From: Candidatus Limnocylindrales bacterium
GTDB lineage: Bacteria > Desulfobacterota > Binatia > UBA1149 > CAITLU01
DNA length: 64,000 nt
Direction: 5' to 3'
NCBI GenBank assembly: GCA_035571835.1
Contig: DATNBU010000037.1
Location: forward strand, 1-64,000
Numbering within the stretch: the stretch's first letter is position 1; every line of letters begins with the position of its first letter. Of this stretch, positions 5,463 to 63,696 are shown piece after piece. The notes below the pieces were generated by a model. That model ran no database searches. It had not been told where the DNA came from and was given only the letters and a program-made list of their open reading frames with translations. Position numbers and translations under genes: made by a program.

Positions 5463-5544
5463 CGACGGACCTCCATCATCCGCCGCATCCTAGACGATCG
5501 CCCGACCTGGCACGAGCAGACGCCGCACGCAGTGTCACGAAAAA

Positions 5545-16493: not shown

Positions 16494-17237
16494 ATGCCCC
16501 GCGAATCGACAACCGACCGCAGGAAGCGTGCGCGACGGATCGCGAAGAAACTCTTCGCAGCGCACCCCGATGCGACCATCGCGCTGAGCTTCCGGAATCC
16601 GTTCGAGCTGATCTGCGCAACCGTGCTGTCGGCGCAGTGTACCGACGAGCGCGTGAACAAGACGACGCCGGCGCTGTTCGAGCGTTTCCCCGACGCGCGC
16701 TCGATGGCCGGCGCGTCGCCGGATGAGCTCGAGAACCTCATCCGCTCGACGGGATTCTACCGGGCCAAGGCGCGCTCGCTGCTTGGTCTTGCCAGTGCGA
16801 TCACGACCGCACATCGCGGAGTCGTGCCGAAGACAATGGAAGAGCTCGTCGAGCTGCCTGGTGTCGGCCGCAAGACGGCCAACGTCGTGCTCGGCAATGC
16901 GTACGGCACGCCGGGCATCGTCGTCGACACGCACGTTCGCCGCGTATCGGGCAGGCTCGAGCTGACGGCCAGCGACGATCCGGTCGAGATCGAATCGGAC
17001 CTGATGCAGCTCATCGAGCGCGCCGACTGGACGATGTTCTCGCACGCGATGATTTTTCACGGGCGACGGATCTGCATCGCGCGAAAACCAAAATGCCCGG
17101 AATGTCCGCTTCTCGACGATTGTCCGTTCCCGAAGCGCGCTGGAATAGCGGTGGCTCCCGATCGGGTTGCCGGCAGAACCGATCCGCGCGCACCGACGCG
17201 TTCGGCGGGAGGTGCGAAACGAAAGATCCCGTCTTGA
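16494..17237 (+). CDS. nth: Endonuclease III (DNA glycosylase/AP lyase)
   Basis: 247 residues. The helix-hairpin-helix is LPGVGRKTANVV with the catalytic Lys, the catalytic Asp is in VDTHVRRVSGRL, and the iron-sulfur cluster ligands are in CIARKPKCPECPLLDDC (spacing 6-2-5). It removes oxidised pyrimidines and nicks the abasic site in base excision repair. The ATG at 16494 matches the family N-terminus; a TTG at 16458 would add 12 residues. A 30-residue basic, low-complexity tail follows the cluster. It is transcribed divergently from the phosphoesterase. Confidence 0.95.
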   Translation: MPRESTTDRRKRARRIAKKLFAAHPDATIALSFRNPFELICATVLSAQCTDERVNKTTPALFERFPDARSMAGASPDELENLIRSTGFYRAKARSLLGLASAITTAHRGVVPKTMEELVELPGVGRKTANVVLGNAYGTPGIVVDTHVRRVSGRLELTASDDPVEIESDLMQLIERADWTMFSHAMIFHGRRICIARKPKCPECPLLDDCPFPKRAGIAVAPDRVAGRTDPRAPTRSAGGAKRKIPS

Positions 17238-17283
17238 GAACCGTCGGGCCCCGCGAAACGAAAGATTCTCTATTGAGAACCGT
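17214..17283. repeat. Two 31-base direct repeats upstream of a secreted protease
   Basis: GCGAAACGAAAGAT...TTGAGAACCGT occurs at 17214-17244 and again at 17253-17283, 39 bases apart start to start, with about 27 of 31 bases identical. The first copy overlaps the last codons of nth and the second lies just before the metalloprotease start at 17308. They might be binding sites or the remains of a local duplication. Confidence 0.7.
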
Positions 17284-17307
17284 GTTTCCGGTCTTCATGG
17301 TGCGGGG

Positions 17308-18624
17308 ATGCCCTTTTTCCGAGCGCTTCCCCGAGCTTTTGTAACAGCCTGTCTTCTGTCTTTGCTGCCGGTTGCTTCCGTGGTTTCGCCGCGTGTCGCC
17401 GCCGCTTCGACGAGCTGCGGCAACGGCGTCGTCGATGCCGGCGAGCAGTGCGACTCCGGCAGCGCGCTCGGCTCGCCGGAATGCAACACCGCGTGCCAGC
17501 GCACGGCATTCGAGCCGGCCGGACTTCCGTTCGGTGTTCCGATGAGCACATTGAGCAGCGATTTCGGCAATCTCGCCGAGATCTTTTCGCCGGGTCTCGA
17601 CTGCAAACCGGCCTCCGTGCGCGATGGCGCGCGCGACCTCGAACCGGTTCACGTCAAATACCGGATCCACCTTTGCCGCACGCCGCTCGGCGTCGATTCG
17701 TTCACACCCGAGCAGGTGCGCGCCGCAATGAAACGTGCATCCGACGAGTACGCGCTCGGGGGCGTCATCCTCGAGGAAGAATCGCTGGTGCGATTTTCCG
17801 ACAAGGACTGCCTCGTGTCGGCCGACGATTCGACGTGGTCGGACGCGCTGGTTGCGAACACACCCCCGGGCGTGCTCGCCGTCAGCTTCGTCACCGGAAT
17901 TTCGATGGCGTCGAGCCAGTTCGCAGTCGGCGGCTACTGTTACTTCTTCGGTCCCATCTGCGTGAATGCCGGCGCATACGACACGCTGGTCGTGCACGAG
18001 CTCGGCCATTTCTTCGGGCTCGCGCACACGTTCGAATGCGAGTACGGCTCGGAAACGCGGGCGGCGTGCTCGTCGACGGGCGATTTTCTCTGTGACACTC
18101 CGCCCGACCGCGGCCCCGCCGGCGTCAGCGGCATTGCGCAATGTGCGAACGGCTCGCTGCTCGACGGCTCGTGTTCGGGAACCTGCGGCCACAAGGTCTG
18201 CACCGACGGGAGCGTCCCCGACTCGTTCGACTGGATGGGCTACTACCACTGCACGCCCGGGCATTTCACCGACCAGCAGCGCGACTTCATGCGCTGCACG
18301 CTCGATCACGAGATGCGGCCGTACAACGCCAACACGTTCGTCGCGCCGACGACGACCCTGCCGCAGACGACGACCACGACGACACCGGAGACGACGTCGA
18401 CCACGATGGCCGACGAAACGTCATGCGGAGACGTCAACGACGACGGCGTGATCACCGCCGCCGACGCGCTCGGCGTGCTTCGCGCGGGCGTCGGTTTGTT
18501 CGGATGCGCGGTCTGGCAGTGCGACTACGACGGGTCCGGCATCATCTCGGCGTCGGACGCGCTCGAAGTGCTCAAGGCGGCGATCGGTGCAGGCGCGTCG
18601 GCCGACTGCCCGGCACGATACTGA
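17308..18624 (+). CDS. Secreted metzincin-like metalloprotease with dockerin-like tail
   Basis: 438 residues. Signal peptide (FVTACLLSLLPVASVVSPRVAA), then a short Cys-rich repeat CGNGVVDAGEQCDSG, then a catalytic domain with HELGHFFGLAHTFE, the HExxHxxGxxH zinc motif of pappalysin-like metzincins. The DWMGYYHC segment probably supplies the Met-turn. Many cysteines suggest disulfides. A Thr-rich linker (about 348-370, encoded by a run of ACG/ACC codons) leads to two EF-hand-like repeats (GVITAADALGVLRAGVG, GIISASDALEVLKAAIG) of the same type as in other exported proteins here. Substrate is unknown. The ATG at 17308 directly precedes the signal peptide. Confidence 0.84.
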   Translation: MPFFRALPRAFVTACLLSLLPVASVVSPRVAAASTSCGNGVVDAGEQCDSGSALGSPECNTACQRTAFEPAGLPFGVPMSTLSSDFGNLAEIFSPGLDCKPASVRDGARDLEPVHVKYRIHLCRTPLGVDSFTPEQVRAAMKRASDEYALGGVILEEESLVRFSDKDCLVSADDSTWSDALVANTPPGVLAVSFVTGISMASSQFAVGGYCYFFGPICVNAGAYDTLVVHELGHFFGLAHTFECEYGSETRAACSSTGDFLCDTPPDRGPAGVSGIAQCANGSLLDGSCSGTCGHKVCTDGSVPDSFDWMGYYHCTPGHFTDQQRDFMRCTLDHEMRPYNANTFVAPTTTLPQTTTTTTPETTSTTMADETSCGDVNDDGVITAADALGVLRAGVGLFGCAVWQCDYDGSGIISASDALEVLKAAIGAGASADCPARY

Positions 18625-24120: not shown

Positions 24121-24852
24121 ATGCCAGTCACGAGAATGCTCCTGATCGCGTGCGCGATGGCTCTTGCCATCGCAAGGCCATGTTCCGCGCAGCAATGCGG
24201 CGACGTGAACGACAGCGGTTCGGTTACCGTCTCCGACGCGCTGGTGGTGCTGCAGTCGGCCGTCGGACAGCCGGTGCCGCTTGAGTGCCCCGCTTCCGGC
24301 TCGCCGGGACGCACGGGGCAGTCGATGTGCTGGAACGGCGGCGGCGAAGAGATCAACTGCAACGGCACCGGGCAGGACGGCGAGCTTCGCACCGGCCAGC
24401 CGCTGAGCTTCACCGACAACGGCAACGGCACGGTGACCGACAACCTGACCGGCCTGATGTGGGAGAAGCTCTCGCGCAACGGCACCATTCACGAAGTGTC
24501 CGACACGTTCGACTGGACCAACGCGTTCGTGAAGATCTCGATGCTCAACGACGCGAAGTTCGCCGGACACGCCGACTGGCGGCTGCCGAATCAGCGCGAG
24601 TTGTTCACGCTCGTCACGTTCGGCGGTGCGGCCGAGCAGACCATCTCCGCGGTCTTTCGCGACGATTGCCAGCCCGGCTGCGCGGTGACGACGTGCAGCT
24701 GCACGGCCGCCGATCGCTACTGGTCGGCGACCACGGATCCGTTTCTCTCGGGTTTGGCCCACGGTGTCGACTTTGGCGCAGCGACGACATTCTCGGCGAC
24801 CAAGCTGTCGAACCGGCACGTTCGTGCTGTGCGCACGGCGGGCGGCCAGTAG
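24121..24852 (+). CDS. Secreted DUF1566 protein with N-terminal dockerin-like unit
   Basis: 243 residues. Signal peptide (MLLIACAMALAIARPCSA), then one Cys-framed EF-hand-like unit (CGDVNDSGSVTVSDALVVLQSAVG...LEC), then a DUF1566/Lcl C-terminal-type domain recognised by FTDNGNGTVTDNLTGLMWEK, HADWRLPNQRELFTLV, YWSATTD and HVRAVR near the end. DUF1566 domains are lectin-like and occur in surface proteins. This is the only one of the four dockerin-like proteins with the unit at the N-terminus. The start follows CCGGAGGAATTCCC. A REP-like palindrome lies between this gene and the convergent exonuclease III gene. Confidence 0.82.
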   Translation: MPVTRMLLIACAMALAIARPCSAQQCGDVNDSGSVTVSDALVVLQSAVGQPVPLECPASGSPGRTGQSMCWNGGGEEINCNGTGQDGELRTGQPLSFTDNGNGTVTDNLTGLMWEKLSRNGTIHEVSDTFDWTNAFVKISMLNDAKFAGHADWRLPNQRELFTLVTFGGAAEQTISAVFRDDCQPGCAVTTCSCTAADRYWSATTDPFLSGLAHGVDFGAATTFSATKLSNRHVRAVRTAGGQ

Positions 24853-25875: not shown

Positions 25876-28800
25876 ATGAATCGCCAGAATCTCCTTGTCT
25901 GCCAAGGGTTTGCATTGCTCGTTGCGACGGCCTTGCTGGTGCCCGCGGCCGCCTCGGCCGCATATCCGGAAGACGCGGATACCCCCACCGAAGGCTGGAA
26001 GTACGGCTTCCGCAGCACGATCGACAGCGCGCAGTATCCGCTCGCGACCGACAAGGAAGGCGCCTCGGGCATGTCGCTCGAGGCCGCGTGGAACGACATC
26101 GACGACTGGCCGCCGCTCGCATCGAGCGGCGGAACGTTCTCGAGCCTCGGGCGGCCCGACGCGCTGGTCGCCTACATCGAAGGCGGCGTGAACTACTGGG
26201 ACAACGGCAACACCCAGCTCATCAAGAAGATCTACATCAATGCTGCCGAAGCGATGGCCGCGCCGGCCTGTGCCGCACGCTACACGCCGAACGGCGATCC
26301 GTGGCTGAACGTCCTCGATTTCCCCGGCACGCCCGATCACAACGGCAACGGCCTTCTCGATCCCGAAGACCTGATCGTCGAGTGCGAGGACGGTGTCGAC
26401 GACGACGGCAACGGCTACACCGACGACATCTCGGGCTGGGATTTCTACAACCGCCAGAACAACCCGCACTCGCAGGACGTGACGTACGGCCATCACAACG
26501 GCCAGATGCTCAACGGTGAAGCGGCGATCAACGACGGCGGCACGCTCGGCGCGTGCCCGCTCTGCATGGTGATGCCGATCCGCGCCGGTGCCGAGGCGCT
26601 CGACCGCACCGACGATCTCGCGCAGGCGTTCCTGTTCGCCGCGGACTCCGGGGCGGCGTCGATCGCGACGCTGACCGCCGACCTCGGCTACTCGAGCTTC
26701 ATGCGCCAGGCCCAGGAGAACCTGTGGCAGCGCGGCGTGCTGATTGCGCATTCTTCCAACGATTTCGATTCGACCGATCACCAGGGCGGCATGTACTGGC
26801 CGCACTCGATTCCCGGCAACGGCGTCGTCAAGGACAACGAAGGCGGCGTGCCGGTGGTGCCGACATGCCTGCCGGGAACGCCGCTGTGCCTTCCCGGTGA
26901 TACGGCGACGCGCACGTTCCGGCAGCGATCGGGGCAGACGTCGTGGGGCACGCGCAACATGGTCTCGGTGGCCGGCACGACGTCGACGTCGGCGTCGACC
27001 GGAACGCTCGGCGGCATTCTCGCGCTGCTGACTTCGTACGGGCGAACCGCCGCCGAGCTCGGCTACATCGATGGTGCGCTCACCGGTCCGGAAGTCGTGC
27101 AGCTGATGATCGCGACCGCATCCGACATCGATCCGTCCGACTTCAGCGCAGTGCCCACGGCGTGGCCGACGCAGGCCGGCTGGGATCTGCAGACCGGATA
27201 CGGACGCATCAACGTCCGGCATTTCCAGGACGAGCTGCTGCACGGCAACGTGCGGCCGGTCGCGTGGCTGAACGCTCCGGAGTGGTTCACGCTCTATGAT
27301 CCGACGGTGACGCCGAAGGTCGAGCTGTTCGGCCACACCGAAGCGAGCCGCTCACCGGACCACAGCTACGACTGGACGCTCGAGTGGGCGGTCGGCGCGG
27401 AGCCGACCGACGCGGACTTCATCGAGATTTCCACCGGTACGCGCAGCGCGGCTTTCGATGGCAAGCTCGGCGAGCTCGATCTTTCTGCGATTCCAGCTTC
27501 GGTCTACGCGAAGGCGTTCGCGCTCTCGACCGGCAAAGAGCTCGAGACGACCGAGAACTATACGGTCACGCTGCGCGTTCGCGTCTCCTACGAGAAGAGT
27601 CCTGGCGTCGTGCTGAGCGGCGAAGAGCGGCGCTCGATCTTCGTGCACCACGACGACGACTGGATGGCCGGCTTTCCGCGACGCATTCGCAGCGGTGCGG
27701 AATGTGCGGGCGGATTCCAGGTTGCGGGCGGCACGCCGGGCTACTGTTTTTCGCCGGGCGGCGAAGCGCAGCCTGCGCTCGTCGACCTCGCCGGCCTCGG
27801 CCATCTGCAGATCGTCTTCGGCGATACCGACGGCTACCTGCACGCAATCGATCCGCTCAGCGGAAACGAGTTGCCGGGCTTCCCCGTCACGACCGATCCG
27901 TCGCCGATCATCAAAAGCGGAGGCTTCCCGGATATCGAAGCCGGTTTCGAGCCGATGCCGAGCAACATCGCCGTCGGCGATCTCGACGGCGACGGCAGGC
28001 TCTCGATCGTTGCGGGAACTTCGACCGGCCGCATCTATGCATGGGATTCGCACGGACACCGGCGTGCCGGCTTTCCGGTGCTGCCGGCCACGGGCGTTGC
28101 TCCGCTCGAATCGCCGCGCATCCCGCGCCAGTTCTCGCGCATGCCGCATCAGGGACTGTTCGCGGCGCCGACGCTGTCGGACTGGGACGGCGACGGCGAC
28201 CTCGAGATCATCGAGGCCGGCTACGACGGGCACATTCACCTCTACGACGGCGACGGCAGTGAGGTGACGAGCGGCAACTGGCCGATCCAGGTGCGCGTTC
28301 CCGACTCGGTGCCGATCACGAGGCCTGCGCTCAACAATCCGAGTGATACGCGCACCCCGATCCGCATGCAGGACCTGCGCATCAGCTCGAACCCGGCACT
28401 CGCGCAGCTCGACGACGATCCCGAGCTCGAGATCGTGGTGCGCAGCCAGATGTCGGACACGATGCCGTCCGACGACATCGAAGTGCTGTCGGGCGTCGGG
28501 CATCTGATCGCGTACGATCACGACGGCAGCTACCTGTGGACCGCCAAGATGGACAGCGCGGCGTTCTATTACGGCAGCGCGCAGGAGTTCATCACCGAAG
28601 GATCCAATTCTCCGGCGGCCGCCGACATCGACGGCGACGGCAAGGACGAAGTGGTGTCGAACCCGGTGCTGTCGACGAGCTCGTATCCGTTCAAAGGCGA
28701 CGGAACCGCGTTCGGCGCGGCGCCGTGGACGTCGCCGCAGGAAGGCGTCGTCGATCCCGCGCTGCCGATTCCCGACGTACCGCTCGGATTTACGACTTCC

Positions 28801-30063
28801 GGCGCGTTCGGCAGCTTCGCCGGAACGCTGACGTACGCGCAGCCGGGTTCCGGCGCGGCATCGATCATCGGAGCGTTGCTGACTGCAGGCTCCGGCCAGC
28901 CGATCCTGAACAAGGAGCGTGCGTGGAACGCGCAGACCGGCGAGCAGCTGCCGGGCTTTCCGTCGAAGCTTCAGGGCCTCAACTTCCTCGGCGCGCCGAT
29001 CTTCGCCGATATCACCGGCGACGGACTTGCCGAGATCCTCGACGGCGGCGATTCGAGCGCGCTGCATGGATACATGGCCGGCGGACTCCAGGCTGTGCTC
29101 GCCGGCTTTCCGAAATTCACGACCGGATGGATGCTGTGGTCGCCGGGTGCGGCCGACCTCGACTCCGACGGTACGACGGAGATCGTCGCCAACACGCGCG
29201 AGGGCGTGACGATGGTGTGGCATACGCCGGGCCTCGCGGCGTCGAACTCCGAATGGTGGCGTTACGGACACGACGAGTGGAATACGCGCCGATACGGCAC
29301 CGACACACGACCGCCGGGAATTCTGCGCGATCCGGTGCTCGACACAGCGGCGCATGGCATCGCGTTCACCGCGCCGGGCGACGACTGGTATGCGGGAAGC
29401 GTCGCAGCCTACGTGGTGCGCTATGACGGCGGAGAGCAGTCGCTCGCGGCTGCCGCAGCCGCCGGTGCGAACGAAACGCTGGCGATCCCTGCGGCCGTAT
29501 CGCGCGGCACCGTTCATGCGGTCGACGACGCCGGCAATCTCGGCCGCGGCCTCGCGTTCGATTTCGTGCTCGGCACGGTCGGCGGGCTGCAGCCGGTGGC
29601 CGGATCCCGCCTGCTCTTCGTCCAGGATTCGGCGAAGCCTGCGTGGCGGGTCGTCTGGCAGGTGAAGGACGCTCTGCTCGAAGCGCCGTCGGGCGATGAC
29701 GCTCCGACTGTTGCCGGCGCGTCGGTGACGATCAGCAATCCGGACAGCGGCGAGTCGGCGACCATCGAGCTGCCGGCCGCGGGCTGGGCCGCCAGCGGCG
29801 ACGGACGTTATCGCTACAAATCGGACGACGGCAGCACGCGAATCGCCGCGAGCATCAAGAGCGGGCGCATGAAGGTGAAGGCACGCGGCGGGTCGATTGC
29901 GTTCACGCTCGACGAGCCATCGCAGGGGTCACTTGCCGTGGTGCTGAGCAGCGGAGAGCGAGGTTACTGCACGCTCTTCGGAGGCGAGATCGACAGCGAC
30001 GAGCCCGGGAAGTTCTCGGCGAAGCGAGCGGGCGCGCCCGATCCGTGTCCGGCGGGGCCGTAA
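25876..30063 (+). CDS. Giant secreted subtilase-like protein with FG-GAP repeats
   Basis: 1395 residues. Signal peptide (LLVCQGFALLVATALLVPAAASA), then a region resembling a divergent S8 subtilase: VDDDGNGYTDDISGWDFYN, MVMPIRA, LIAHSSNDF and GTTSTSASTGTLGGILALL match the spacing of the Asp, oxyanion Asn and Ser regions, though GTS-AxP is altered (Ser372 is the best candidate nucleophile). From about 620 to 1120 there are at least six FG-GAP/VCBS-type repeats (VGDLDGDGRL, SDWDGDGDLEI, AADIDGDGKDE, FADITGDGLAE, AADLDSDGTTE). The last 130 residues form a beta-rich module also present in the hydrolase at 31826-34435. Role is presumably extracellular. The ATG at 25876 follows GGAGGGACCCC. Confidence 0.8.
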   Translation: MNRQNLLVCQGFALLVATALLVPAAASAAYPEDADTPTEGWKYGFRSTIDSAQYPLATDKEGASGMSLEAAWNDIDDWPPLASSGGTFSSLGRPDALVAYIEGGVNYWDNGNTQLIKKIYINAAEAMAAPACAARYTPNGDPWLNVLDFPGTPDHNGNGLLDPEDLIVECEDGVDDDGNGYTDDISGWDFYNRQNNPHSQDVTYGHHNGQMLNGEAAINDGGTLGACPLCMVMPIRAGAEALDRTDDLAQAFLFAADSGAASIATLTADLGYSSFMRQAQENLWQRGVLIAHSSNDFDSTDHQGGMYWPHSIPGNGVVKDNEGGVPVVPTCLPGTPLCLPGDTATRTFRQRSGQTSWGTRNMVSVAGTTSTSASTGTLGGILALLTSYGRTAAELGYIDGALTGPEVVQLMIATASDIDPSDFSAVPTAWPTQAGWDLQTGYGRINVRHFQDELLHGNVRPVAWLNAPEWFTLYDPTVTPKVELFGHTEASRSPDHSYDWTLEWAVGAEPTDADFIEISTGTRSAAFDGKLGELDLSAIPASVYAKAFALSTGKELETTENYTVTLRVRVSYEKSPGVVLSGEERRSIFVHHDDDWMAGFPRRIRSGAECAGGFQVAGGTPGYCFSPGGEAQPALVDLAGLGHLQIVFGDTDGYLHAIDPLSGNELPGFPVTTDPSPIIKSGGFPDIEAGFEPMPSNIAVGDLDGDGRLSIVAGTSTGRIYAWDSHGHRRAGFPVLPATGVAPLESPRIPRQFSRMPHQGLFAAPTLSDWDGDGDLEIIEAGYDGHIHLYDGDGSEVTSGNWPIQVRVPDSVPITRPALNNPSDTRTPIRMQDLRISSNPALAQLDDDPELEIVVRSQMSDTMPSDDIEVLSGVGHLIAYDHDGSYLWTAKMDSAAFYYGSAQEFITEGSNSPAAADIDGDGKDEVVSNPVLSTSSYPFKGDGTAFGAAPWTSPQEGVVDPALPIPDVPLGFTTSGAFGSFAGTLTYAQPGSGAASIIGALLTAGSGQPILNKERAWNAQTGEQLPGFPSKLQGLNFLGAPIFADITGDGLAEILDGGDSSALHGYMAGGLQAVLAGFPKFTTGWMLWSPGAADLDSDGTTEIVANTREGVTMVWHTPGLAASNSEWWRYGHDEWNTRRYGTDTRPPGILRDPVLDTAAHGIAFTAPGDDWYAGSVAAYVVRYDGGEQSLAAAAAAGANETLAIPAAVSRGTVHAVDDAGNLGRGLAFDFVLGTVGGLQPVAGSRLLFVQDSAKPAWRVVWQVKDALLEAPSGDDAPTVAGASVTISNPDSGESATIELPAAGWAASGDGRYRYKSDDGSTRIAASIKSGRMKVKARGGSIAFTLDEPSQGSLAVVLSSGERGYCTLFGGEIDSDEPGKFSAKRAGAPDPCPAGP

Positions 30064-30339
30064 ATGGCAGATACGGTTCCGTAGGCCCGGTGGCAGCAGG
30101 CTCCCGCGCAGCCTGCGCCGTCGGCCACTGCGGCGCAGTGGTCGTTCCGACCGGTGACGCCGCATCCGTGGAGGGCGTGTCCATGCAGATGGCCTTGCGG
30201 GGTACTGTCGCACGCGCAGCATGAATGCGCGCCGCACGGCAGGTCGCGCAATCGGCACTGCGAAGCATGCGGACCTCATCCGCGCGCCGGCAGGTTTGGG
30301 CCGGACGCGTGAGTGGATAGAACCGAAGCTGGCAGTGCA

Positions 30340-30762
30340 ATGAACGACGGTCCGGCGATATCGGTCAGAAAGACGAGCGTGGTGCTTCTGAAGGCGATGG
30401 GCAGCTTCGTCGCCGTCTGCATCGCGCTCGGCGTGTATTTCGATCTGATCAACGGCCGCTTCTCGGGTGCCAGCTTCGTAGCCGAGGTGCTGTGGATCGC
30501 AGGGCTGCTCGGACCGCTTCTGATCGGTGGAGTGGCCTCCGTCTGGATGGGCGATCGTTTACGTGGCTCGCATCGGGCGAGCTCCCGTGTCGCGCTCCGC
30601 GTAGTGCTCATCGCTCTCGCTTTCGCGTCGGGAGCGCTGACGACGGCCATCGCAATCCGGCTCGTCGTCGCGCATGCACCGGAGAGCGTAGCGGCGCACT
30701 ATTCGGAGATGACTTCGACGCTCGAGGCAGCGACGGAAAGCATAAGGGCAAAATCGCGCTGA
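30340..30762 (+). CDS. Small membrane protein, unrecognised
   Basis: 140 residues with three probable membrane segments: VLLKAMGSFVAVCIALGVYFD, VAEVLWIAGLLGPLLIGGVAS and VVLIALAFASGALTTAIAIRL. The C-terminal 35 residues are helical and hydrophilic (EMTSTLEAATESIRAKS). No family recognised. Start uncertain: ATG at 30340 is chosen, while GTG at 30313 would add nine residues; neither has a strong ribosome binding site. The 276 bases before it, after the subtilase-like gene, hold no gene I can support. Confidence 0.6.
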   Translation: MNDGPAISVRKTSVVLLKAMGSFVAVCIALGVYFDLINGRFSGASFVAEVLWIAGLLGPLLIGGVASVWMGDRLRGSHRASSRVALRVVLIALAFASGALTTAIAIRLVVAHAPESVAAHYSEMTSTLEAATESIRAKSR

Positions 30763-30953
30763 TCGCGCCGACGCTTCCTCCGCAAGCGTTCAGCGAGCAG
30801 GCGCCGCCATTGTCGCACGGCGCACATGGCTTCAGCGGCATATTTCCAACCTCGTGGGTGGGTTTATCCGCTGCCCAAGTCTTGTCGGACGGCGCAACTC
30901 ATGAGAATTTTTCGCAAAGGGGGAGCGCGATGCCGGTCGACAAAAGGAGCGTC

Positions 30954-31736
30954 ATGAAAAATTCCCTTTCGATCTTCTTCCTGATGTTCGCGGTCGTTGC
31001 ATTGCCGGGCTCGAGCAGCGCGGGAGGCAAGGCCGACGGGCGGCCGTGCCATGTTTCCAAGAGCTGCCGGAGCAACTACTGCATCACGCTCCATCCCGAG
31101 GACAAGTTCGGCGTCTGCTGCACGCCGCAGGGCTGCCCCGAGCCGAATGCCCAGTGCGGTACGATCGGCAATGCGTGCGGCGTACCGATCGAATGCGGAC
31201 CCTGTGATCCCGGAAGCACGTGCGTCAACAATCAATGCGTGCCGGCATCGACGACCACCACAACGACCTCGACGACGAGCACGACCATGTGCACGGAATT
31301 AGCCTGCGGAAATCTTTCGCTCTGTGGCGAAGGCGCACCCGGCTCCTGCTTCGTGGTCCAGACGCCCGAGACCGGCGCGTGCACGCCGAACTGCGTGAAC
31401 AACGCGGACTGTCAGACGTTGACGGCGTGCACCGCGACCACCGACTGCGCGCCGGGCCAGGTCTGCGCGATCAAGACGTGCTGCGGCGAGGCCGGTGTGT
31501 GTGCGACTCCATGCGGCCAGACGCCGCCGAGCACGTCCACGACCACGAGCTCCACGACCACGACGACGAGCACCACCAGCACCACGCTCGGGTTCCCGAA
31601 GAGCTGCGTCGGATTCTGCAACACCAACTCGGTTCCTCCGGGTGACGGAGCCGACTGCTTCTGCAATGACATCGCGTGTTTCTCGCCTACGGGATGCGCC
31701 GATTTCTTTACGGCTTGCCCGTTCGTGTGCGACTGA
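30954..31736 (+). CDS. Secreted Cys-rich protein with Thr-rich linkers
   Basis: 260 residues. Signal peptide (LSIFFLMFAVVALPGSSSA), then three Cys-rich blocks separated by two Thr/Ser linkers (after CVPAS at about residue 100, and after GQTPPS at about 190). The blocks include CCTPQGCPEPNAQCGTIGNACGVPIECGPC, and CTPNCVNNADCQTLTACTATTDCAPGQVCAIKTCC, close to the disulfide-knotted repeats of myxobacterial-type surface proteins. No catalytic motif. The ATG at 30954 follows AAAAGGAGC; an ATG at 30930 is an alternative. It is convergent with the alpha/beta hydrolase gene, with a hairpin terminator between them. Confidence 0.78.
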   Translation: MKNSLSIFFLMFAVVALPGSSSAGGKADGRPCHVSKSCRSNYCITLHPEDKFGVCCTPQGCPEPNAQCGTIGNACGVPIECGPCDPGSTCVNNQCVPASTTTTTTSTTSTTMCTELACGNLSLCGEGAPGSCFVVQTPETGACTPNCVNNADCQTLTACTATTDCAPGQVCAIKTCCGEAGVCATPCGQTPPSTSTTTSSTTTTTSTTSTTLGFPKSCVGFCNTNSVPPGDGADCFCNDIACFSPTGCADFFTACPFVCD

Positions 31737-31780
31737 AGACCGGCCGGAGCGCGGCCGGTCTGATCACAGGCACGCTCTGA

Positions 31781-31818
31781 CGGAAGGGTCGTCACCGTAC
31801 GCGGCGACGACCCTTCCG
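31781..31818. terminator. Bidirectional hairpin terminator between convergent genes
   Basis: CGGAAGGGTCGTCACCG (31781-31797) pairs with 31802-31818 around loop TACG: 16 of 17 positions pair. On the plus strand it is followed by GCTTTTCC, a modest U-tract suited to ending the Cys-rich gene; on the minus strand there is no U-tract. A second, smaller hairpin (GACCGGCC...GGCCGGTC, 31738-31760) lies just after the plus-strand stop. Confidence 0.7.
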
Positions 31819-31825
31819 GCTTTTC

Positions 31826-34435
31826 CTACGGTGCGAGGCACGGTGACGCGTTGCAGACGTCGACCACCGCGCCGTTCTCTTTCAGGAACTCCGACTTCTG
31901 AAGTCGCGCCGCCGGCGTGCTGCGCGGCTTGCTGTGCGGGTCGGAGCCTTCGCGCGGCGGCGAATTCGTCGTCGGCGGCGTCGGAACTCCACTGTCCCAC
32001 ACGACGAGCGCCGACCCGTCGAACGGAAACGCGGGAATTGCCGGGATGCCGAAGTACGGTTCGACGTCCGAATGCCGTCCGGGCGCGAGCGCCGGCTGAT
32101 AGACATGCGCGCCGATCGTGCGCGCCTCGACCTCGGCCGCAATGTTGGCAACCTGGTGATCACCGAATGCGACATGCATGAGGATGTCGTGCGTCGGCGT
32201 GCCCGGCAGCGGGTCGGCGGTCATGTGGTGCGCGTAGCCGTTCGGCTCGCCGCGATCCCAGAGCATCTGGATCAGCGAGAACAGAAGCGGGCGCTCGAGC
32301 TGGTTCTGGTAGGACGCGTAAAGGCCGGTCGCATAGGTGTCGAAATCGACGCTGCGCTGCAGCAGCGTGCTGTAATTCATGCCCGGAACTCCGAGCACTC
32401 CGCGCCGGATGTCCTGCGCCACGGCCATGACCATGCCGCCTGCAATGCCGCCCTGGCTGTTGCCGTCGTAGTAGATGTTGCTCGTGTCGATGACCGGATT
32501 TCCGAGCGCATCCTGGAAGGCCGCGTTCGACACGAATCCGTCCGGATGAATCATCAGGCGGCCGAGGACGAGGAAGTTCAGCGCGGCCTGCTGCAGCCGG
32601 TCGGGCAACGTCGGGAAGTTCGAAAGGTCGACGGTTGCGGCCAGCGCCGTCGGAACGTCGGTCAGCGCCATGCCGATCCAGTCCGTCGCGCAGAACACGA
32701 AGTTGTGCTCGTTGCCCATCGCTTCGACGTTGCCGGCCCCGACCTCCGATGCTTCGCCGAAAAGGCCGTGACCATAAAGCGACGCACGCGCCGGCACGGC
32801 CGTCGCGAGTGCATCGGACAGGGCCGCGCGCGGAATGTTGCAGATGAAGTTGGCCTGCTGCGGCGTCGGCTGTCGCACGGGCAGCCCGTCGGGACCGATG
32901 AGGAAGCGCGCGCCGGGCAGCGGCGAGTCGACGTAGCGATCGACGAGGAACACGCCTTCGACGGTGCGGTAGATATTGCTGTCGACGTCGTCCGTTACGC
33001 TGGTGACGACGAAGGTCGGAGCCGCCGCACCGAGGCGCGAGAACGCGTCATCGCGCATGTACACGAGCCGGCCGGTCGTGCTGCCGGCACTGGCCACCGT
33101 GAAGTCCCACGCAAGGTTCAGATCGCCGCGCGCGACGCCGGCCGCCGCCAGCGTCGTGAACAGCGATTCCATGTGGCTGCGTCGGGCTTCCTTTGCCGCG
33201 TTGCCGAGCGGCGTGTCGTCCCTGTAGGCGAGGAAATCCGCCGACGGCGCAATCGGCGCGCCGGCAGAGTCCTTCAGGTTGCGCAGCGCGACAATGTAGC
33301 GCGCGCCTTCTTCGAAGTTGACGGCCGGACGCAACAGCAGCGAGCGATCGGCTTCGACTTCGGCAAGCGAATCGAGCTCCGCCCAGAATTTGTGGTGCTC
33401 GAGCGTAGCGGCGTTGACGATCACGATCGGTGCATCGGCGTCGAGCGAGCGCGCGATGTCGGTGATCGGTACTGCGCCGGTCTGTACGAGGTCGATGCCG
33501 GGAATCCGAAGCGTGATCAGCGCGCCCGGGCTGAAGCCGTCGCTGTAGTTGTAATCGCTCGGCTCGACGGGCCTCGCGGACTGGTTGCGCGGCATGCCGG
33601 TCACCGAAAAATGCACGCGCCGACCGGTCGGCGACGCTGCATCGGGGACCGTGAAGTAATCGTTCGGGAACGGATGCATGCACACGCTCGGGTCGAGCGG
33701 GTCGCACGGGCACGTGCAGTCGGCGTTGCACACCGAGCCGCCGCAATCGGAGCCCGGAGGATCGCACTGCTCGCTGCCGTTGATGGCGAGATCGCCGCAA
33801 AGCGCCGGCACCGGCAGCGTGGTCGTCGTCGTGGTGGTGGTCCCATCGGGCTGGGTCGTCGTCGTCGTTTCGGGAAGTGTCGTCGTCGTTGTCCCGGCAT
33901 CGTCGCAGCTGGCGGGCGCCGCTGCGGCCCTGGCCTGGAAACGTCCGGCTTCGTCGCGGACGATCGTGCCGCCGAAGTGCAGGCACACACGCAGCGTACC
34001 GCTGGCGAACGAGATCGCGATGCTGCCCTGGGACTCCTCATCGAGCGTGATGCCCGAAGCGCGCGCACGAACTTTGATCGAGCCGTCCGCGATGCGTGCG
34101 GTTTTTACCGGCGAGCTGCCGTCCGGGGCATCCGGATTGCGGAACCTGTATGCCTTACCGTCAAACGACCATCCGACGGCCGGGAGGATGAACGTTGCGG
34201 CCTCGCCGCTCTGCGGGTTGCGGATCAGCAGGCTTGCTCCGGTGATGGTCGGGTCCTCGTCGCTGGCGGCGGACGGGGCGCTGAGGCTCGCATCCTTTCC
34301 ATCCAGCGACAGCGCCTGCTTGCTGCCGTCTCGGATGGACAGCTGGCGTCCGGTGGCCGGAACGTCGGCTGCCATGGCATCGGTGGCAACGAGGGCGGCG
34401 AAGAATGCGCATACGAACGTAGCGAGCAGCGGCAT
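31826..34435 (-). CDS. Secreted alpha/beta-hydrolase-like protein, 869 residues
   Basis: Signal peptide (MPLLATFVCAFFAALVATDAMA), then a beta-rich module of about 130 residues shared with the C-terminus of the subtilase-like protein, a Thr-rich linker with two TTTTLP stretches, one CGDLAINGSEQCD repeat, and a large C-terminal domain from about residue 260. That domain has the nucleophile elbow YYDGNSQGGIAGG with Ser660 (GxSxGG) and VAFGDHQVAN, which may supply the His. This matches large secreted esterase/lipase-like proteins of delta-type genomes; substrate unknown. The C-terminus ends in a Cys pair (VCNASPCLAP). The ATG at 34435 is chosen for the GGAGG site; the longer in-frame extension upstream has no such support. 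Confidence 0.8.
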   Translation of the reverse strand: MPLLATFVCAFFAALVATDAMAADVPATGRQLSIRDGSKQALSLDGKDASLSAPSAASDEDPTITGASLLIRNPQSGEAATFILPAVGWSFDGKAYRFRNPDAPDGSSPVKTARIADGSIKVRARASGITLDEESQGSIAISFASGTLRVCLHFGGTIVRDEAGRFQARAAAAPASCDDAGTTTTTLPETTTTTQPDGTTTTTTTTLPVPALCGDLAINGSEQCDPPGSDCGGSVCNADCTCPCDPLDPSVCMHPFPNDYFTVPDAASPTGRRVHFSVTGMPRNQSARPVEPSDYNYSDGFSPGALITLRIPGIDLVQTGAVPITDIARSLDADAPIVIVNAATLEHHKFWAELDSLAEVEADRSLLLRPAVNFEEGARYIVALRNLKDSAGAPIAPSADFLAYRDDTPLGNAAKEARRSHMESLFTTLAAAGVARGDLNLAWDFTVASAGSTTGRLVYMRDDAFSRLGAAAPTFVVTSVTDDVDSNIYRTVEGVFLVDRYVDSPLPGARFLIGPDGLPVRQPTPQQANFICNIPRAALSDALATAVPARASLYGHGLFGEASEVGAGNVEAMGNEHNFVFCATDWIGMALTDVPTALAATVDLSNFPTLPDRLQQAALNFLVLGRLMIHPDGFVSNAAFQDALGNPVIDTSNIYYDGNSQGGIAGGMVMAVAQDIRRGVLGVPGMNYSTLLQRSVDFDTYATGLYASYQNQLERPLLFSLIQMLWDRGEPNGYAHHMTADPLPGTPTHDILMHVAFGDHQVANIAAEVEARTIGAHVYQPALAPGRHSDVEPYFGIPAIPAFPFDGSALVVWDSGVPTPPTTNSPPREGSDPHSKPRSTPAARLQKSEFLKENGAVVDVCNASPCLAP

Positions 34436-34619
34436 TGGCGGGTCCTCCAGGTCGGATTCGGAACGCCACCACAAAACGCACGGCCCGCTATTTACAACAA
34501 TGACAGTTAGCGCGACGGCCGCGAATTCCCGTATTTTGCCTGTATCTGGACTTGCTGCCCGGGGCCGGCTGGCCGCTGCGCGGGTGTTCTGGACGATGCC
34601 CGATCGAGGGTGCCGGCCG

Positions 34620-34667
34620 CCGGCATCGACCGGCATCGATTCGCCGCCATCGACCGGCATCGACTCG
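34620..34667. repeat. 24-base tandem duplication
   Basis: Two adjacent 24-base copies (34620-34643, 34644-34667) differ at two positions; each also contains the sub-repeat CGGCATCGA twice. They lie in the 279 bases between the hydrolase start and the stop of the next minus-strand gene. Confidence 0.75.
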
Positions 34668-34670
34668 GTG

Positions 34671-34702
34671 CGGTCGTCGCCGCACGCATACGGCGACGAC
34701 CG
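34671..34702 (-). terminator. Perfect 12-bp hairpin after a secreted-protein gene
   Basis: CGGTCGTCGCCG (34671-34682) and CGGCGACGACCG (34691-34702) pair perfectly around an 8-base loop, 12 bases beyond the stop of the gene ending at 34715. No U-tract follows on the minus strand. The hairpin and the bases up to the stop codon closely resemble those after the gene ending at 31826. Confidence 0.65.
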
Positions 34703-34714
34703 TTCCGTGGTTGC

Positions 34715-36334
34715 TTACGGAGCGGTGACCGCCTTGAGGATGCCATTCGCATTGCGGCGGACGTCGTCGGTCCCGTACGACCCCTCGAAACATGAGCCGT
34801 CCTGGATCTGCAGCTGCACGCGGATCGGAAGCGACACCTCCGGCACCGGAAGCGGCAGCGCCTCGCCGGATGTTTTCACGCCGAGCTTTGGAGCGTCGCC
34901 TACGCGCAGGTCGATCGCCGAAATTGCGTCGGTGCGGCTGCGGAAGCGCATGCTGCCGCTGCTGTCCACGCTCCATCCCGGCTCGAGGTAATAGTCGTTG
35001 ATGCTGTCGGAGTAGAGCAGCACCGGATCGACGCCCGATTCGTCGAACACGCAGAGCCCGACCTCGCTCGATACGTCGGGTCGCGCGATCTCCGAAGGCG
35101 CTACCGGGCCGCCGTCTTTCCAGTCCCAGCGAAGCGATCTGCGCGCGCTGCCTTCAACGTTCTTGATCGAGAATTTCGTCGTCGCGGCGCGGCAGTCATC
35201 GCGCGGGCCCACGCTGCAGCCGCCGGAACCATCGCAGACCGAGCAGGAAGGGCAATACTGCGAGAACGCCGCTACGCACTGGCCGGCGTGGCATGTCGAG
35301 ACGACTGCACACGGATCGTCGGACTCGCACGGCGTCCAGTCGGGTACCGGCTCGCAAACGGCCGGATCGCCTTCGCAGCGCTGGCACGAATCGACGCTGC
35401 AGCCGTCCGGCGGCTCGAGCGCAGGGGGTGCGCAGCGCACGCCGAACTCATCGTACGGAGCGTAGCCGAAGCATCCGTGCGGCGTCGGTGCGAGAAAACC
35501 ATCGGTCGCCATATAGGTGTTGCCGTCCGCGGCGACGGCTCCGTCGAGCCCGCCGAGACCGCAGTTCGGAAACGATCCGGTACCGTCCATCTGGATCGCC
35601 AGCGTCGTGGAATCGAATGATCCACTTCTTTGTTCGGCTCCGCCCGGCAGCGAGTACACCGTCAGAGTCCCGTCGGCGGCCTGCACGAATTCACTGCGGC
35701 TTACTCCGGTCCCGTCGAAAAGGCCGCTCGTCCCGCGAATCCCGCGCAGCCACGTGCCGCTGAGATCGATGCACTGCGCAGTTTCGACGCCGCTTGCGCA
35801 CGTACCACCGCTGCACGCTCCGCCGGCAACGCAGAGGCTCGGGTCTTCGCACGGCGTGGCGTCGGCGACCGGCGTGCACGTGGATGGCTCGGCGGTGCAT
35901 TCGTTGCACACTTCGACCAGGCACTTGAAGTCGCAGCCGTCCCCATTCGCCGTGTTGCCGTCGTAGCAGGCGCATCGTTCGAGCGTCACATTGGAAGTCA
36001 CGTACTGGCAGAACGAGAGCACGCACTGGAACGAGTGCCGCACGCCAGTAAGCGTCGATTCATCCTCGGAGACGACGAGCGAGTACGACTGGGGAAAGTT
36101 CGGATCGGTGCTCGCAACTTCGACGTTGCTGCCGTCAATCGATCCTTGCAGCCCGTTCAACGTAACCGAAGTGCCGGACTGCACGATTGCGTACTTGGCG
36201 TTTCTGACGTCGCGCCAGTGACCAGTCAGATCGATGGCCGCAGCCGCAGGTGCCCAGACAAGGACGCCGAGCAATACGGCAAGCGACGACGTGAGCACCG
36301 TTTGCGACAGTCCGCGGCCGGCGAGGTTCGACAT
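34715..36334 (-). CDS. Secreted Cys-rich protein of unknown function
   Basis: 539 residues. Signal peptide (VLTSSLAVLLGVLVWAPAAAA), then IDLTGHWRDVRNAKYAIVQSG, reminiscent of small beta-barrel modules that start with a GxW motif; a second such start (IDLSGTWLRGIRG) occurs near residue 210. Cys-rich blocks follow each (CNECTAEPSTCTPVADATPC; CQRCEGDPAVCEPVPDWTPC), so the protein looks like two repeats of barrel plus Cys-rich block. The C-terminal 150 residues begin TKFSIKNVEGSARRSLRWDWKD and resemble the beta module of its neighbours, more weakly. Function unknown. Start could also be the in-frame ATG at 36370. Confidence 0.7.
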   Translation of the reverse strand: MSNLAGRGLSQTVLTSSLAVLLGVLVWAPAAAAIDLTGHWRDVRNAKYAIVQSGTSVTLNGLQGSIDGSNVEVASTDPNFPQSYSLVVSEDESTLTGVRHSFQCVLSFCQYVTSNVTLERCACYDGNTANGDGCDFKCLVEVCNECTAEPSTCTPVADATPCEDPSLCVAGGACSGGTCASGVETAQCIDLSGTWLRGIRGTSGLFDGTGVSRSEFVQAADGTLTVYSLPGGAEQRSGSFDSTTLAIQMDGTGSFPNCGLGGLDGAVAADGNTYMATDGFLAPTPHGCFGYAPYDEFGVRCAPPALEPPDGCSVDSCQRCEGDPAVCEPVPDWTPCESDDPCAVVSTCHAGQCVAAFSQYCPSCSVCDGSGGCSVGPRDDCRAATTKFSIKNVEGSARRSLRWDWKDGGPVAPSEIARPDVSSEVGLCVFDESGVDPVLLYSDSINDYYLEPGWSVDSSGSMRFRSRTDAISAIDLRVGDAPKLGVKTSGEALPLPVPEVSLPIRVQLQIQDGSCFEGSYGTDDVRRNANGILKAVTAP

Positions 36335-61335: not shown

Positions 61336-63546
61336 TCAGTACTGGCTTTGCGAAAGCGTCCAGCGTCCGTTGCCGAGCTTCCAGTTCGCCGTGACGAACG
61401 CGACGTCATTGCCGAGATAGATCTGGGTCGTCATCCGCGGGACGGTCGCGCTCGAGAGATCGGCGGAGACTTTGACCCGGACGCCGTATCCGTAAACGCC
61501 GCCGTCCCTGCGCCGCTTGACGCGGACGCTCTGGATGCCGTCTCCCTGCAGGTCCGGCGCCTTGAAGAGAAACCTGCTTTTGCGTGTCGCCCTCAGCTCT
61601 CCCGCCGGCAGGTCCGCGCGGAAAATTGTGCCGGCGGCGTTGCTGAGCATGATCGTGAAGGTCTCGAGGGCGGGGTTCACGTCTGTCGTCGGCACCATTC
61701 GGCCGTGGAAACTGAAGTCTCCGCTTCGAACGGCACGAGGGTCGACTTCCGACAGATACACCATGGCCGGATCCCGCAGCAGCGGAATGCACGGGACGAG
61801 GAGCTGGCACTCATCGCTGCAGCTTGGTGGAATGGCATCCACGCAGTCGCTATCCGCGCAATCGATCTCCCCATCTCCATCGTCATCGGTTCCGTTGTTG
61901 CAGAGCTCTCCACCGGGCACATCGCACTGCTCGCCGCAGGCGAGCTCGACGATTCCATTGCCGCAGGTCGCGCTCACGTGCATGCAGAGGTCGGTCGCTT
62001 CGACGCACGAATCGATGGTGCACGCATTGGCATCGGTGCAGTCGCGGGCCGGCCCGGCCAGGCACGTGCCGCTGTCGCAGGCATCGCCCACCGTGCAGAA
62101 CTCTCCGTCATCGCACGGGACGGCGTTGTTCACGTGCGCGCAGGTGTCGGTCGCTTCGATGCACGCATCATTCGTGCACAGGTTCGAGTCGCCGCAATCG
62201 CGCGGCACGCCGGCGCAGGCGCCGCCGGTACAGACGTCGCCGACCGTGCAGAACTGGCCGTCATCGCAGGCAATCGGGTTGTTCGCGTGCGTGCAGGTAT
62301 CGGTGTTCTCGTTGCACGAATCGATGGTGCACGCGTTTGCGTCGCCGCAATCGCGCGCGGCACCGGGGATGCAGTTGCCGGCGCTGCACGAGTCTCCGTC
62401 CGTACAGAACAACCCGTCGTCGCAGAGACCGGTATTGTCGTTGTGAGTGCAGATCCCGCCCGCCTCGTCGCAGGAGTCGTTCGTACAGACGTTCGAATCG
62501 GTACAGTCGCGAGGCACACCGCCGCAGGTGCCCCCGCTGCAGGCATCCCCCGTGGTGCAGAACTGCAGGTCATCGCACGCAATCGAGTTGTTCGTGTGCA
62601 GGCAGACATCCGTGGCTTCGCTGCACGAGTCGTTGGTGCATGAATTCGCGTCCGCGCAGTCGCGCGCCGTGCCGGAGCAGGTGCCGCCCGCGCACACGTC
62701 GCCGACAGTGCAGAACAGGGCATCATCGCAAGTCAGGGTATTGTTCGGAAAAGTACATCCGTCGACGTCTGCGACCGGGTCGGCGGGAGCGCAAATCTGG
62801 GTGGTACAGACGTTGCCGTCGTCGAGACACTCCGCATTGCTGCCGCACGACGGCCCGCACGCGGAAATGACGTTGGTGTCCAGCGTAACTGCGCCGTTGA
62901 GGGCATACAGGCTGCCGTCGTTGGATGCGTCAGTCGTCATCGTGATGGATTCGGAGGCCAGGATGTCTCCGAAGAACGCCGTTCCCGTTCCGAGAGTGGC
63001 GGAGCTGCCGACTTGCCAGATGACGTTGTTGCAGGACGGAAATCCGTTGATCGTCACCACGCTCGCATTGCTTGCCGTGGTCAGCGTACTTCCGATCTGA
63101 AAGATGAAGACGGCGCTGGAGTTGCCCTGGAAGTCCAGGGTCAGCGTTCCCGTCAGTTCCGCCGAGCTGTCGAAACAATAGACTCCGGGAGTAAGCGTGA
63201 GGCCGCCGAGATCGCTGCCCGTCAAGTCGGTATTGCACGCCTGTCCGGCAACGAAGTTGTATGCGTCGAGTGCATCGGCCTGACCCGGACCGGCGTTCGA
63301 GCTGAATCCCGAGTAGATCGTCCCGTTGACGATTCCGGGAGGATAAAACCCCGTAACCGCGGTGCCAGGGCTCACACCGAGATCGCCATTGACGACGGTG
63401 AGTCCGGTACTGGTTACGGTGGTCGCTCCGAGTACCGCGAAGTCGATTGCCGTGCCGAGGTCAGGACGAACGGCCGCGTACAGCGAAACCGGAGATGCCA
63501 TCATCGACAACGCCACAGAAAAAGTCAGGCTTCTACGAAGTTTCAC
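61336..63546 (-). CDS. Secreted ice-binding-like (DUF3494) Cys-rich repeat protein
   Basis: 736 residues. Signal peptide (LTFSVALSMMASPVSLYAA), a DUF3494-type ice-binding/adhesin beta-helix (about 28-225; LGTAIDFAVLGATTVTSTG, VNGDLGVSPGTAVTGF, FIFQIGSTLTTAS, VIWQVGSSATLGTGT), five tandem Cys-rich repeats of about 51 residues (eight cysteines each, CDDxxFCTxGDxC...RDCxDxNxCTxDxC), one CGNGIVELACGEQCD repeat, and a C-terminal 150-residue beta domain. The C-terminal domain may be related to the module of the secreted proteins at 25-36 kb. The protein is presumably exposed at the surface. Its promoter carries palindrome copy 2. Confidence 0.83.
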   Translation of the reverse strand: MKLRRSLTFSVALSMMASPVSLYAAVRPDLGTAIDFAVLGATTVTSTGLTVVNGDLGVSPGTAVTGFYPPGIVNGTIYSGFSSNAGPGQADALDAYNFVAGQACNTDLTGSDLGGLTLTPGVYCFDSSAELTGTLTLDFQGNSSAVFIFQIGSTLTTASNASVVTINGFPSCNNVIWQVGSSATLGTGTAFFGDILASESITMTTDASNDGSLYALNGAVTLDTNVISACGPSCGSNAECLDDGNVCTTQICAPADPVADVDGCTFPNNTLTCDDALFCTVGDVCAGGTCSGTARDCADANSCTNDSCSEATDVCLHTNNSIACDDLQFCTTGDACSGGTCGGVPRDCTDSNVCTNDSCDEAGGICTHNDNTGLCDDGLFCTDGDSCSAGNCIPGAARDCGDANACTIDSCNENTDTCTHANNPIACDDGQFCTVGDVCTGGACAGVPRDCGDSNLCTNDACIEATDTCAHVNNAVPCDDGEFCTVGDACDSGTCLAGPARDCTDANACTIDSCVEATDLCMHVSATCGNGIVELACGEQCDVPGGELCNNGTDDDGDGEIDCADSDCVDAIPPSCSDECQLLVPCIPLLRDPAMVYLSEVDPRAVRSGDFSFHGRMVPTTDVNPALETFTIMLSNAAGTIFRADLPAGELRATRKSRFLFKAPDLQGDGIQSVRVKRRRDGGVYGYGVRVKVSADLSSATVPRMTTQIYLGNDVAFVTANWKLGNGRWTLSQSQY
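61971..62730 (-). repeat. Five tandem 51-residue Cys-rich coding repeats
   Basis: Within the ice-binding-like gene, five units of about 153-156 bases code for blocks starting CDDxxFCT and ending near xxCxHxNN. Cysteine positions are conserved (about 1, 7, 13, 18, 25, 31, 36, 43), and codon choice has diverged, suggesting an old duplication kept by structural constraint. Confidence 0.85.
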
Positions 63547-63581
63547 GATGCCTCCTGTCGCCGGGAGATGGCGGCACCGTA

Positions 63582-63610
63582 ATTCTAGGCTTCGAAGGTG
63601 ATGGCGATAG
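63582..63610 (-). promoter_or_regulatory. Promoter of the ice-binding-like gene
   Basis: On the minus strand TAGAAT (63587-63582) is a good -10; 17 bases upstream CTATCG (63610-63605) is a poor -35, which fits activator-dependent transcription. The start codon at 63546 lies 36 bases downstream of the -10. Confidence 0.45.
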
Positions 63611-63619
63611 ACAGGAGTT

Positions 63620-63631
63620 CTACGCGCGTAG
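63620..63631. promoter_or_regulatory. Palindromic site, copy 2
   Basis: The same CTACGCGCGTAG as at 61220-61231, followed on the minus strand by AACTCC (AATTCC in copy 1). The offset to the -10 is identical (32 bases between site and -10). Confidence 0.5.
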
Positions 63632-63696
63632 TGACGTGATTCGTGCCACGTCAGTGTGCGTCACGACGCCCTTAGGGGCTGCATAATCGACGCCGT

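Follow-up and report, generated by a model that had tools for sequence, protein, structure and literature searches.

SLH and similar cell-wall-binding domains, which may be N- or C-terminal, retain bacterial proteins by way of a polymer of the envelope; the SLH domain itself is helical and is represented in Pfam. Dockerins are small terminal domains made of a pair of EF-hand repeats. The C-terminal domain (CTD) of the type IX secretion system (T9SS) is described as a beta-sandwich borne by many Sec-exported proteins per genome (PMC4804311), and the surface localisation of MYXO-CTERM proteins has been reported to depend on type II secretion (PMC11980579). The cell surface of the Binatota, a phylum of uncultured bacteria, seems to have received little description; the main text of the global Binatota genome paper (PMC8262859) mentions neither secretion, adhesion, S-layer, cell surface nor outer membrane. 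Here we analyze a stretch of 64,000 nucleotides from a genome of the class Binatia (contig DATNBU010000037.1 of assembly GCA_035571835.1, positions 1 to 64,000; hereafter the window), in which versions of one beta-rich module of about 155 residues occur on four probably exported proteins. We put at about 50% the probability that this module is a lineage-specific domain for the retention, by anchoring or sorting, of exported Binatia proteins at the cell surface.

Two copies of the module represent subfamily A. Copy 1 (29593..30060, plus strand) forms the extreme C-terminus of an FG-GAP protein, while copy 2 (33902..34357, minus strand) lies immediately downstream of the signal-peptide-like start of a hydrolase. 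The pattern that an original prediction had recognized in both was confirmed by BLASTP (64 of 154 residues identical, 42%; E = 2e-28); the module itself is real, although longer than first noted, its approximately 155 residues including an extra N-terminal pair of strands. The same order of motifs had also been seen, weakly, at the end of the protein encoded at 34715..36334. Here copy 3 (34718..35197, minus strand; subfamily B) occupies the extreme C-terminus. No pairwise BLASTP link joined copy 3 to copy 1 (E = 0.32); the A profile nevertheless aligns with that of B over 145 columns with a probability of 98.3% (E = 1.6e-14), against 0.0-0.9% for 20 column-shuffled B profiles and 2.0% for a reversed profile. 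The first A profile also matched two B places. This part of the prediction stands, and on profile evidence the homology of A and B is firm.

A more distant likeness had been proposed for the C-terminus of an ice-binding protein, which is located outside the 25876-36334 segment. The identity of this host is sound (PF11999, E = 5e-55), and copy 4 (61339..61734, minus strand), its extreme C-terminus, defines a third subfamily, C. The link to A is less strong: the two profiles align over 86 columns with a probability of 85% (E = 6e-6), compared with 0.0-0.5% for 20 column-shuffled C profiles and 0.4% for a reversed one. A two-sequence C profile reaches copy 1 at E = 0.0024, direct matches of the A and B profiles to copy 4 are weak (E = 0.03 and 0.16, respectively), and B and C profiles are related at 28% only. 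Homology of A and C is probable from these comparisons. The profiles comprised 57 copies of A and, from the source genome, 52 copies of B and seven of C; three of the 55 B places were omitted, one for an in-frame stop (C27:50673) and two for being too short (C11:151312 and C37:100699). Five weak C-terminal relatives, some with a Cys-containing tail, were observed in the same genome (C39:408955, C11:141711, C11:187899, C11:124915 and C11:111038; L119-L123) and may represent further subfamilies.

The module is abundant in the source genome, which measures 5.46 Mb and is 98% complete. There, a B profile made from two sequences matched 51 places at E ≤ 1e-5 and five more weakly, one of the latter being copy 1. 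The A profile matched eight clear places, the very copies from which it was built and which it matches best, and six weaker ones, two of which are B places. Using copy 1 as lone query, seven of the eight A places (copy 1 itself included) were recovered at E ≤ 2.9e-4 and the eighth at E = 0.043. A two-sequence C profile matched seven places besides its weak match on copy 1. Note that two B places (out of 51) and two C copies (out of seven) contributed to their own profiles, and that matches in other genomes are free of such circularity. Together, A and B occupy 67 places in 67 different proteins. One B copy (L059, C27:50673-51110 of the source genome, G000) has an in-frame TAA near its end, indicating a truncated module, an assembly error or a pseudogene, and one C copy (L272, C8:54413-54832 of the same genome) lies at the end of an open frame some 5,000 codons long.

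The module recurs within the class. Among 148 Binatia genomes scanned at E ≤ 1e-6, A was present in 49, B in 51, both in 46 and either in 54, and a phylum-wide sample of 198 genomes contained A in four (E ≤ 1e-6) and B in five (E ≤ 1e-5), all of them within Binatia; since at most 25 candidates per genome were scored in the class and at most 19 in the phylum sample, these counts are lower bounds. Full scoring of five named relatives gave 47, 30, 10, 19 and 25 B copies. The named relatives recovered by a scan across phyla were all metagenome-assembled genomes (Deltaproteobacteria OFTM157 and OFTM293, UBP10_UBA1149, NIOZ-UU50 and Co_bin.122). UBP10_UBA1149 proved to be assembly G281, with which it agrees exactly in coordinates and scores, and belongs to the order of the window's genome. 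UBP10 is a name for the Binatota (PMC8262859); the class that NCBI names in this phylum is Binatia, to which the window's genome is assigned by inference. Occurrence outside Binatia is possible, because the sole cross-phylum scan used two short peptide patterns (5 loci). Carriage of the module as plasmid or virus cargo was rejected: tblastn searches of 72,556 plasmid records with an A copy and a B copy returned no match, and two scans of viral contigs yielded no confirmed relative.

Of the 55 B places examined in the source genome, 51 end no more than 20 residues short of the C-terminus (about three would be expected under uniform placement) and 54 no more than 43; the one exception, C28:23858, is internal. 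All seven C copies end within two residues. Subfamily A uses both ends. Five of its eight clear copies in the source genome follow a signal-peptide-like stretch directly, beginning 27-37 residues from the chosen start, and the other three end within three residues of the C-terminus; with four weaker matches located 19-29 residues from the end, all 12 are near an end. Of 49 A loci in class genomes, 26 are C-terminal, 21 are N-terminal after a signal-peptide-like start (18 by rule and three, L127, L172 and L143, by eye), one is internal (L151) and one is cut off (L171). For B, 28 of 31 loci are C-terminal and three internal, a set from which L141, an A copy matched twice, was left uncounted.

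The phylogenetic tree of A supports the claim that the module is either N- or C-terminal and moves as a unit. It holds 58 copies (30 C-terminal, 26 N-terminal and two internal), and the N/C label of the 56 labelled copies requires at least 10 changes, of which well-supported branches by themselves force only two or three. Labels were assigned by rule, except that L127, L143 and L172 were set by hand as N-terminal and L151 and L171 as internal. A recent tandem duplication producing copies 1 and 2 was considered and rejected: the two share a clade of nine rows (support 84) but differ in their partners, copy 1 pairing with L149 of another family (support 91) and copy 2 falling within a group of seven rows that includes copies of other genomes (support 90).

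The hosts are diverse. Family scans of 66 module proteins (C27:50673 omitted), tallied for the first 25 of 48 and the first 25 of 35 families, revealed FG-GAP, BNR, RCC1, HAF, delta-60 and ELWxxDGT repeats, propellers and beta-helices, as well as matches to GH43, polyhydroxyalkanoate (PHA) depolymerases, penicillin amidase, lysyl oxidase and a phosphodiesterase, among others; a further host is the ice-binding protein of copy 4. Cys-rich repeats of TIGR02232 occur in 19 hosts, choice_anch_Q in four and CSLREA in three; a single host matched a MYXO-CTERM protein model, and many had no family match at all. A signal-peptide-like start was present in 58 of 61 hosts with a closed 5' end, compared with 30 of 78 other long open reading frames of the window, real and spurious, by a crude and generous rule that chooses the most favourable among up to 12 starts. 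Since none of 60 proteins with a C-terminal A or B module has a membrane-helix-like stretch in its last 45 residues and few hosts (5/61, without a control) have lipobox-like starts, no other anchor is obvious on them.

The window contains four hosts. The host of copy 1 (25876..30063, plus strand) has a signal-peptide-like start, FG-GAP repeats (FG-GAP_3, E = 7.5e-16) and the module last. It had been labelled subtilase-like, a label not upheld by Pfam, in which FG-GAP repeats alone exceed the cut-off; the part so labelled was not recognized by Pfam and could be a decayed subtilase. The host of copy 2 (31826..34435, minus strand; start picked by rule) consists of a signal-peptide-like start, the module, a Thr-rich linker and the hydrolase, which has a distant likeness to VolA/Pla-1 phospholipases (TIGR03502, E = 1.2e-8, under the curated cut-off). 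In the host of copy 3 (34715..36334, minus strand) a signal-peptide-like start is followed by Cys-rich stretches (TIGR02232, E = 0.0071, under its cut-off) and, last, the module, and copy 4 ends the open frame of the ice-binding protein (61336..63660, minus strand; start position approximate).

The C-terminal slot is shared with other endings. 'Choice-of-anchor' is the NCBI name for families whose members bear differing surface anchors, and we inspected the endings of 59 choice_anch_Q proteins chosen from the class, 20 from module-bearing and 39 from module-free genomes. Among the 20, seven were classed as running off the stretch, three carry the module (one of them also running off), one has a membrane-helix tail, five end within 150 residues and four end otherwise, some in dockerin-like pairs. 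Among the 39, 18 end within 150 residues, three run off and 18 end otherwise, with RTX-like repeats and dockerin-like pairs seen by eye. The module therefore shares its slot with several other endings that can take its place, and in this sample some of them are commoner. RTX-like repeats follow choice_anch_Q in L327 and L332 (G209), apparently in place of the module (by eye). Dockerin-like (EF-hand) repeats were likewise seen by eye near the ends of three proteins of the window (17149-18621 and 24121-24852, plus strand; 4716-5489, minus strand), with a weak PF00404 match (E = 7e-4) in the first frame alone, and in the same slot in relatives (L347, L335, L339, L361 and L364).

As had been supposed, the module matches no named family in the libraries searched: none of nine A copies matched Pfam or NCBIfam at E ≤ 0.1, and 14 B copies gave only weak matches confined to single members, of which SAVED (E = 0.0024), ProQ, GH79C and XpsN, one B copy each, were judged to be due to chance. 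NCBIfam contains models of T9SS sorting domains; neither these nor Dockerin, SLH or similar cell-wall-binding families were among the matches of the nine A and 14 B copies. A sequence search of the PDB gave no convincing relative (best E = 0.16), and the titles and abstract beginnings listed from open-licence literature contained no description of such a domain.

AlphaFold models were generated for copy 1 (6 sequences) and copy 3 (7 sequences). Both have a predicted local distance difference test score (pLDDT) of 74.4 and a predicted template modelling score of 0.71, and both are all-beta, with 11 and 12 strands, respectively, which suggests that the module is one all-beta domain. The models agree in showing a similar succession of strands, a comparison made without superposition and not independent, given that the B alignment held A rows. 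Neither of the two results that would have contradicted the original prediction occurred, namely a match to a known family or models that disagree. Foldseek returned nothing at E ≤ 0.001 (best for B, CTLA-4 at 3.9e-3). The best VIA Z-scores were middling and belonged to unrelated beta domains (5.9 for A with ZP-N domains, 6.0 for B with FlaG). MtrC appeared in both VIA lists (Z of 5.2 and 5.9), a resemblance that may reflect a common arrangement only. T9SS CTD entries were not among the fold matches listed, which excludes nothing.

The module also differs in charge from the protein that carries it. In the source genome, lysine makes up 4.3% of A and 5.1% of B modules, compared with 1.3% and 1.2% of the remainder of the respective, very acidic proteins, a three- to fourfold difference, and 57 of the 60 copies tabulated (from a total of 67) are less negative than the remainder. 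Median isoelectric points at class loci are 9.4 for A (67 matches) and 8.7 for B (34 matches), figures that include repeated matches and one locus of the source genome. A basic or less acidic island on an acidic protein suits the binding of an anionic polymer of the envelope.

The module of the original prediction is thus real, mobile and unnamed, yet it was underestimated, for it tags protein ends throughout the genome. The role in adhesion, sorting or display that had been suggested for it would be an inference from where it sits, which proteins carry it and how it is charged. Surface retention provides the best fit because the module is placed at either end, its hosts are varied and have no other obvious anchor, and its charge is distinctive. 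The hosts, judging by their signal-peptide-like starts, would leave the cytoplasm through the Sec pathway, and type II secretion would be their probable route across the outer membrane. The terminal beta domain, folded and rich in lysine, would then retain the protein at the cell surface, its most likely partner being either a surface polymer of anionic character or a single receptor common to most hosts, and a single genome would thereby give the same tag to about 66 unrelated proteins. Several observations weigh against surface retention. Modules of the source genome are still mildly acidic (median isoelectric point 5.4 for A and 5.2 for B); some copies are internal (C28:23858, a B copy of the source genome, L151 of A, and L195, L200 and L204); the module is absent in 10 of the 13 choice_anch_Q proteins of module-bearing genomes that were not classed as running off; and N-terminal A copies are hard to square with a machine that reads a tag at the C-terminus only.

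The explanation that survives best among the alternatives, and one that we consider rather unlikely, is that the module binds a ligand in the manner of a carbohydrate-binding module, bringing exported proteins to an external polysaccharide, mineral or polyester. Carbohydrate-binding modules are usually terminal, the models are all-beta, tryptophans are conserved in alignments A1 and A9, and the hosts include hydrolases, with two PHA depolymerases and two GH43 matches. However, the commonest host matches (within the first 25 families) are to Cys-rich repeats, propellers and other repeats, which have no obvious substrate in common, and no carbohydrate-binding family matched the nine A and 14 B copies. 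Carbohydrate-binding modules are also often repeated within one protein, whereas the 67 places of A and B amount to a single copy per protein.

Less probable again is a translocation signal similar to the T9SS CTD, read by a dedicated outer-membrane secretion machine such as a type II system. The extreme C-terminal position of B and C fits this explanation, as does the beta-sandwich of the T9SS CTD (PMC4804311), but A copies located directly behind a signal peptide do not. Type II GspD exceeds the cut-off in 109 of 148 class genomes, and two such genes were found in 22 of 54 module-bearing compared with 4 of 94 module-free genomes. A tree of 60 selected GspD genes (L208-L267), 45 from 27 module-bearing genomes (those with two genes favoured) and 15 from 13 module-free genomes, revealed two deep clades, and clade II was present in 25 of the 27 module-bearing genomes. 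However, clade II was also present in 7 of the 13 module-free genomes, four of these from family f4, which has no module match, and G211 and G212 bear the module with only clade I among their GspD genes over the cut-off. In seven module-bearing genomes a single contig carries genes of both clades, some 75-135 kb from each other. Because kinship and the incompleteness of assemblies confound the association of GspD with the module, it amounts to no more than a lead; by analogy with MYXO-CTERM proteins, a type II route for the hosts is at most plausible. No marker of T9SS was found, SprA_N having 0 matches, and equally 0 in 14 control genomes, a search without positive control. Finally, a structural cap or folding aid that binds no partner and stabilizes exported proteins that are long and repetitive or rich in Cys is very improbable, for although many hosts are of these kinds, the module sits at an end and the Cys pairs found to be invariant in alignments A1 and A9 fit a disulfide-stabilized domain, enzymes carry it too (penicillin amidase and PHA depolymerase matches), a Thr-rich linker parts copy 2 from its hydrolase, and expansion to tens of copies is left unexplained.

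The module marks more than 60 probably exported proteins in the source genome. With its profile, candidate surface proteins could be delimited together in a dozen family groups of the class, and a search for a receptor would gain a clear target. A broader proposal, which we regard as tentative and doubtful in its full extent, is that Binatia possess a display system of their own. In this proposal a superfamily of beta domains (A, B, C and probably more) on an estimated 1% of genes would be recognized by a conserved receptor or polymer of the envelope, perhaps together with a type II system dedicated to them, as a folded domain at either chain end and not as a C-terminal peptide.

The module shares some features with known sorting and anchoring systems. 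It is small and terminal as type I dockerins are, and in some relatives dockerin-like pairs occupy the same slot (by eye), but it is predicted to be all-beta and only 3 of 67 copies have an EF-hand-like pattern. MYXO-CTERM, GlyGly-CTERM and PEP-CTERM tags combine a short motif with a membrane helix and a basic tail, of which the helix-like stretch has no counterpart in the module proteins (0/60); the likeness lies in the dozens of tagged surface proteins per genome reported for MYXO-CTERM (PMC11980579). With the T9SS CTD the module has in common a C-terminal location, many copies per genome and carriers that are probably Sec-exported; the models of the module are all-beta, and the T9SS CTD is a beta-sandwich. 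The structure of the RgpB CTD has 65 ordered residues compared with approximately 155 in the module, which is over twice that length, and subfamily A is also N-terminal, with the five clear copies behind a signal-peptide-like start described above. Although it belongs to none of the families tested, the module would resemble known sorting and anchoring domains in its working.

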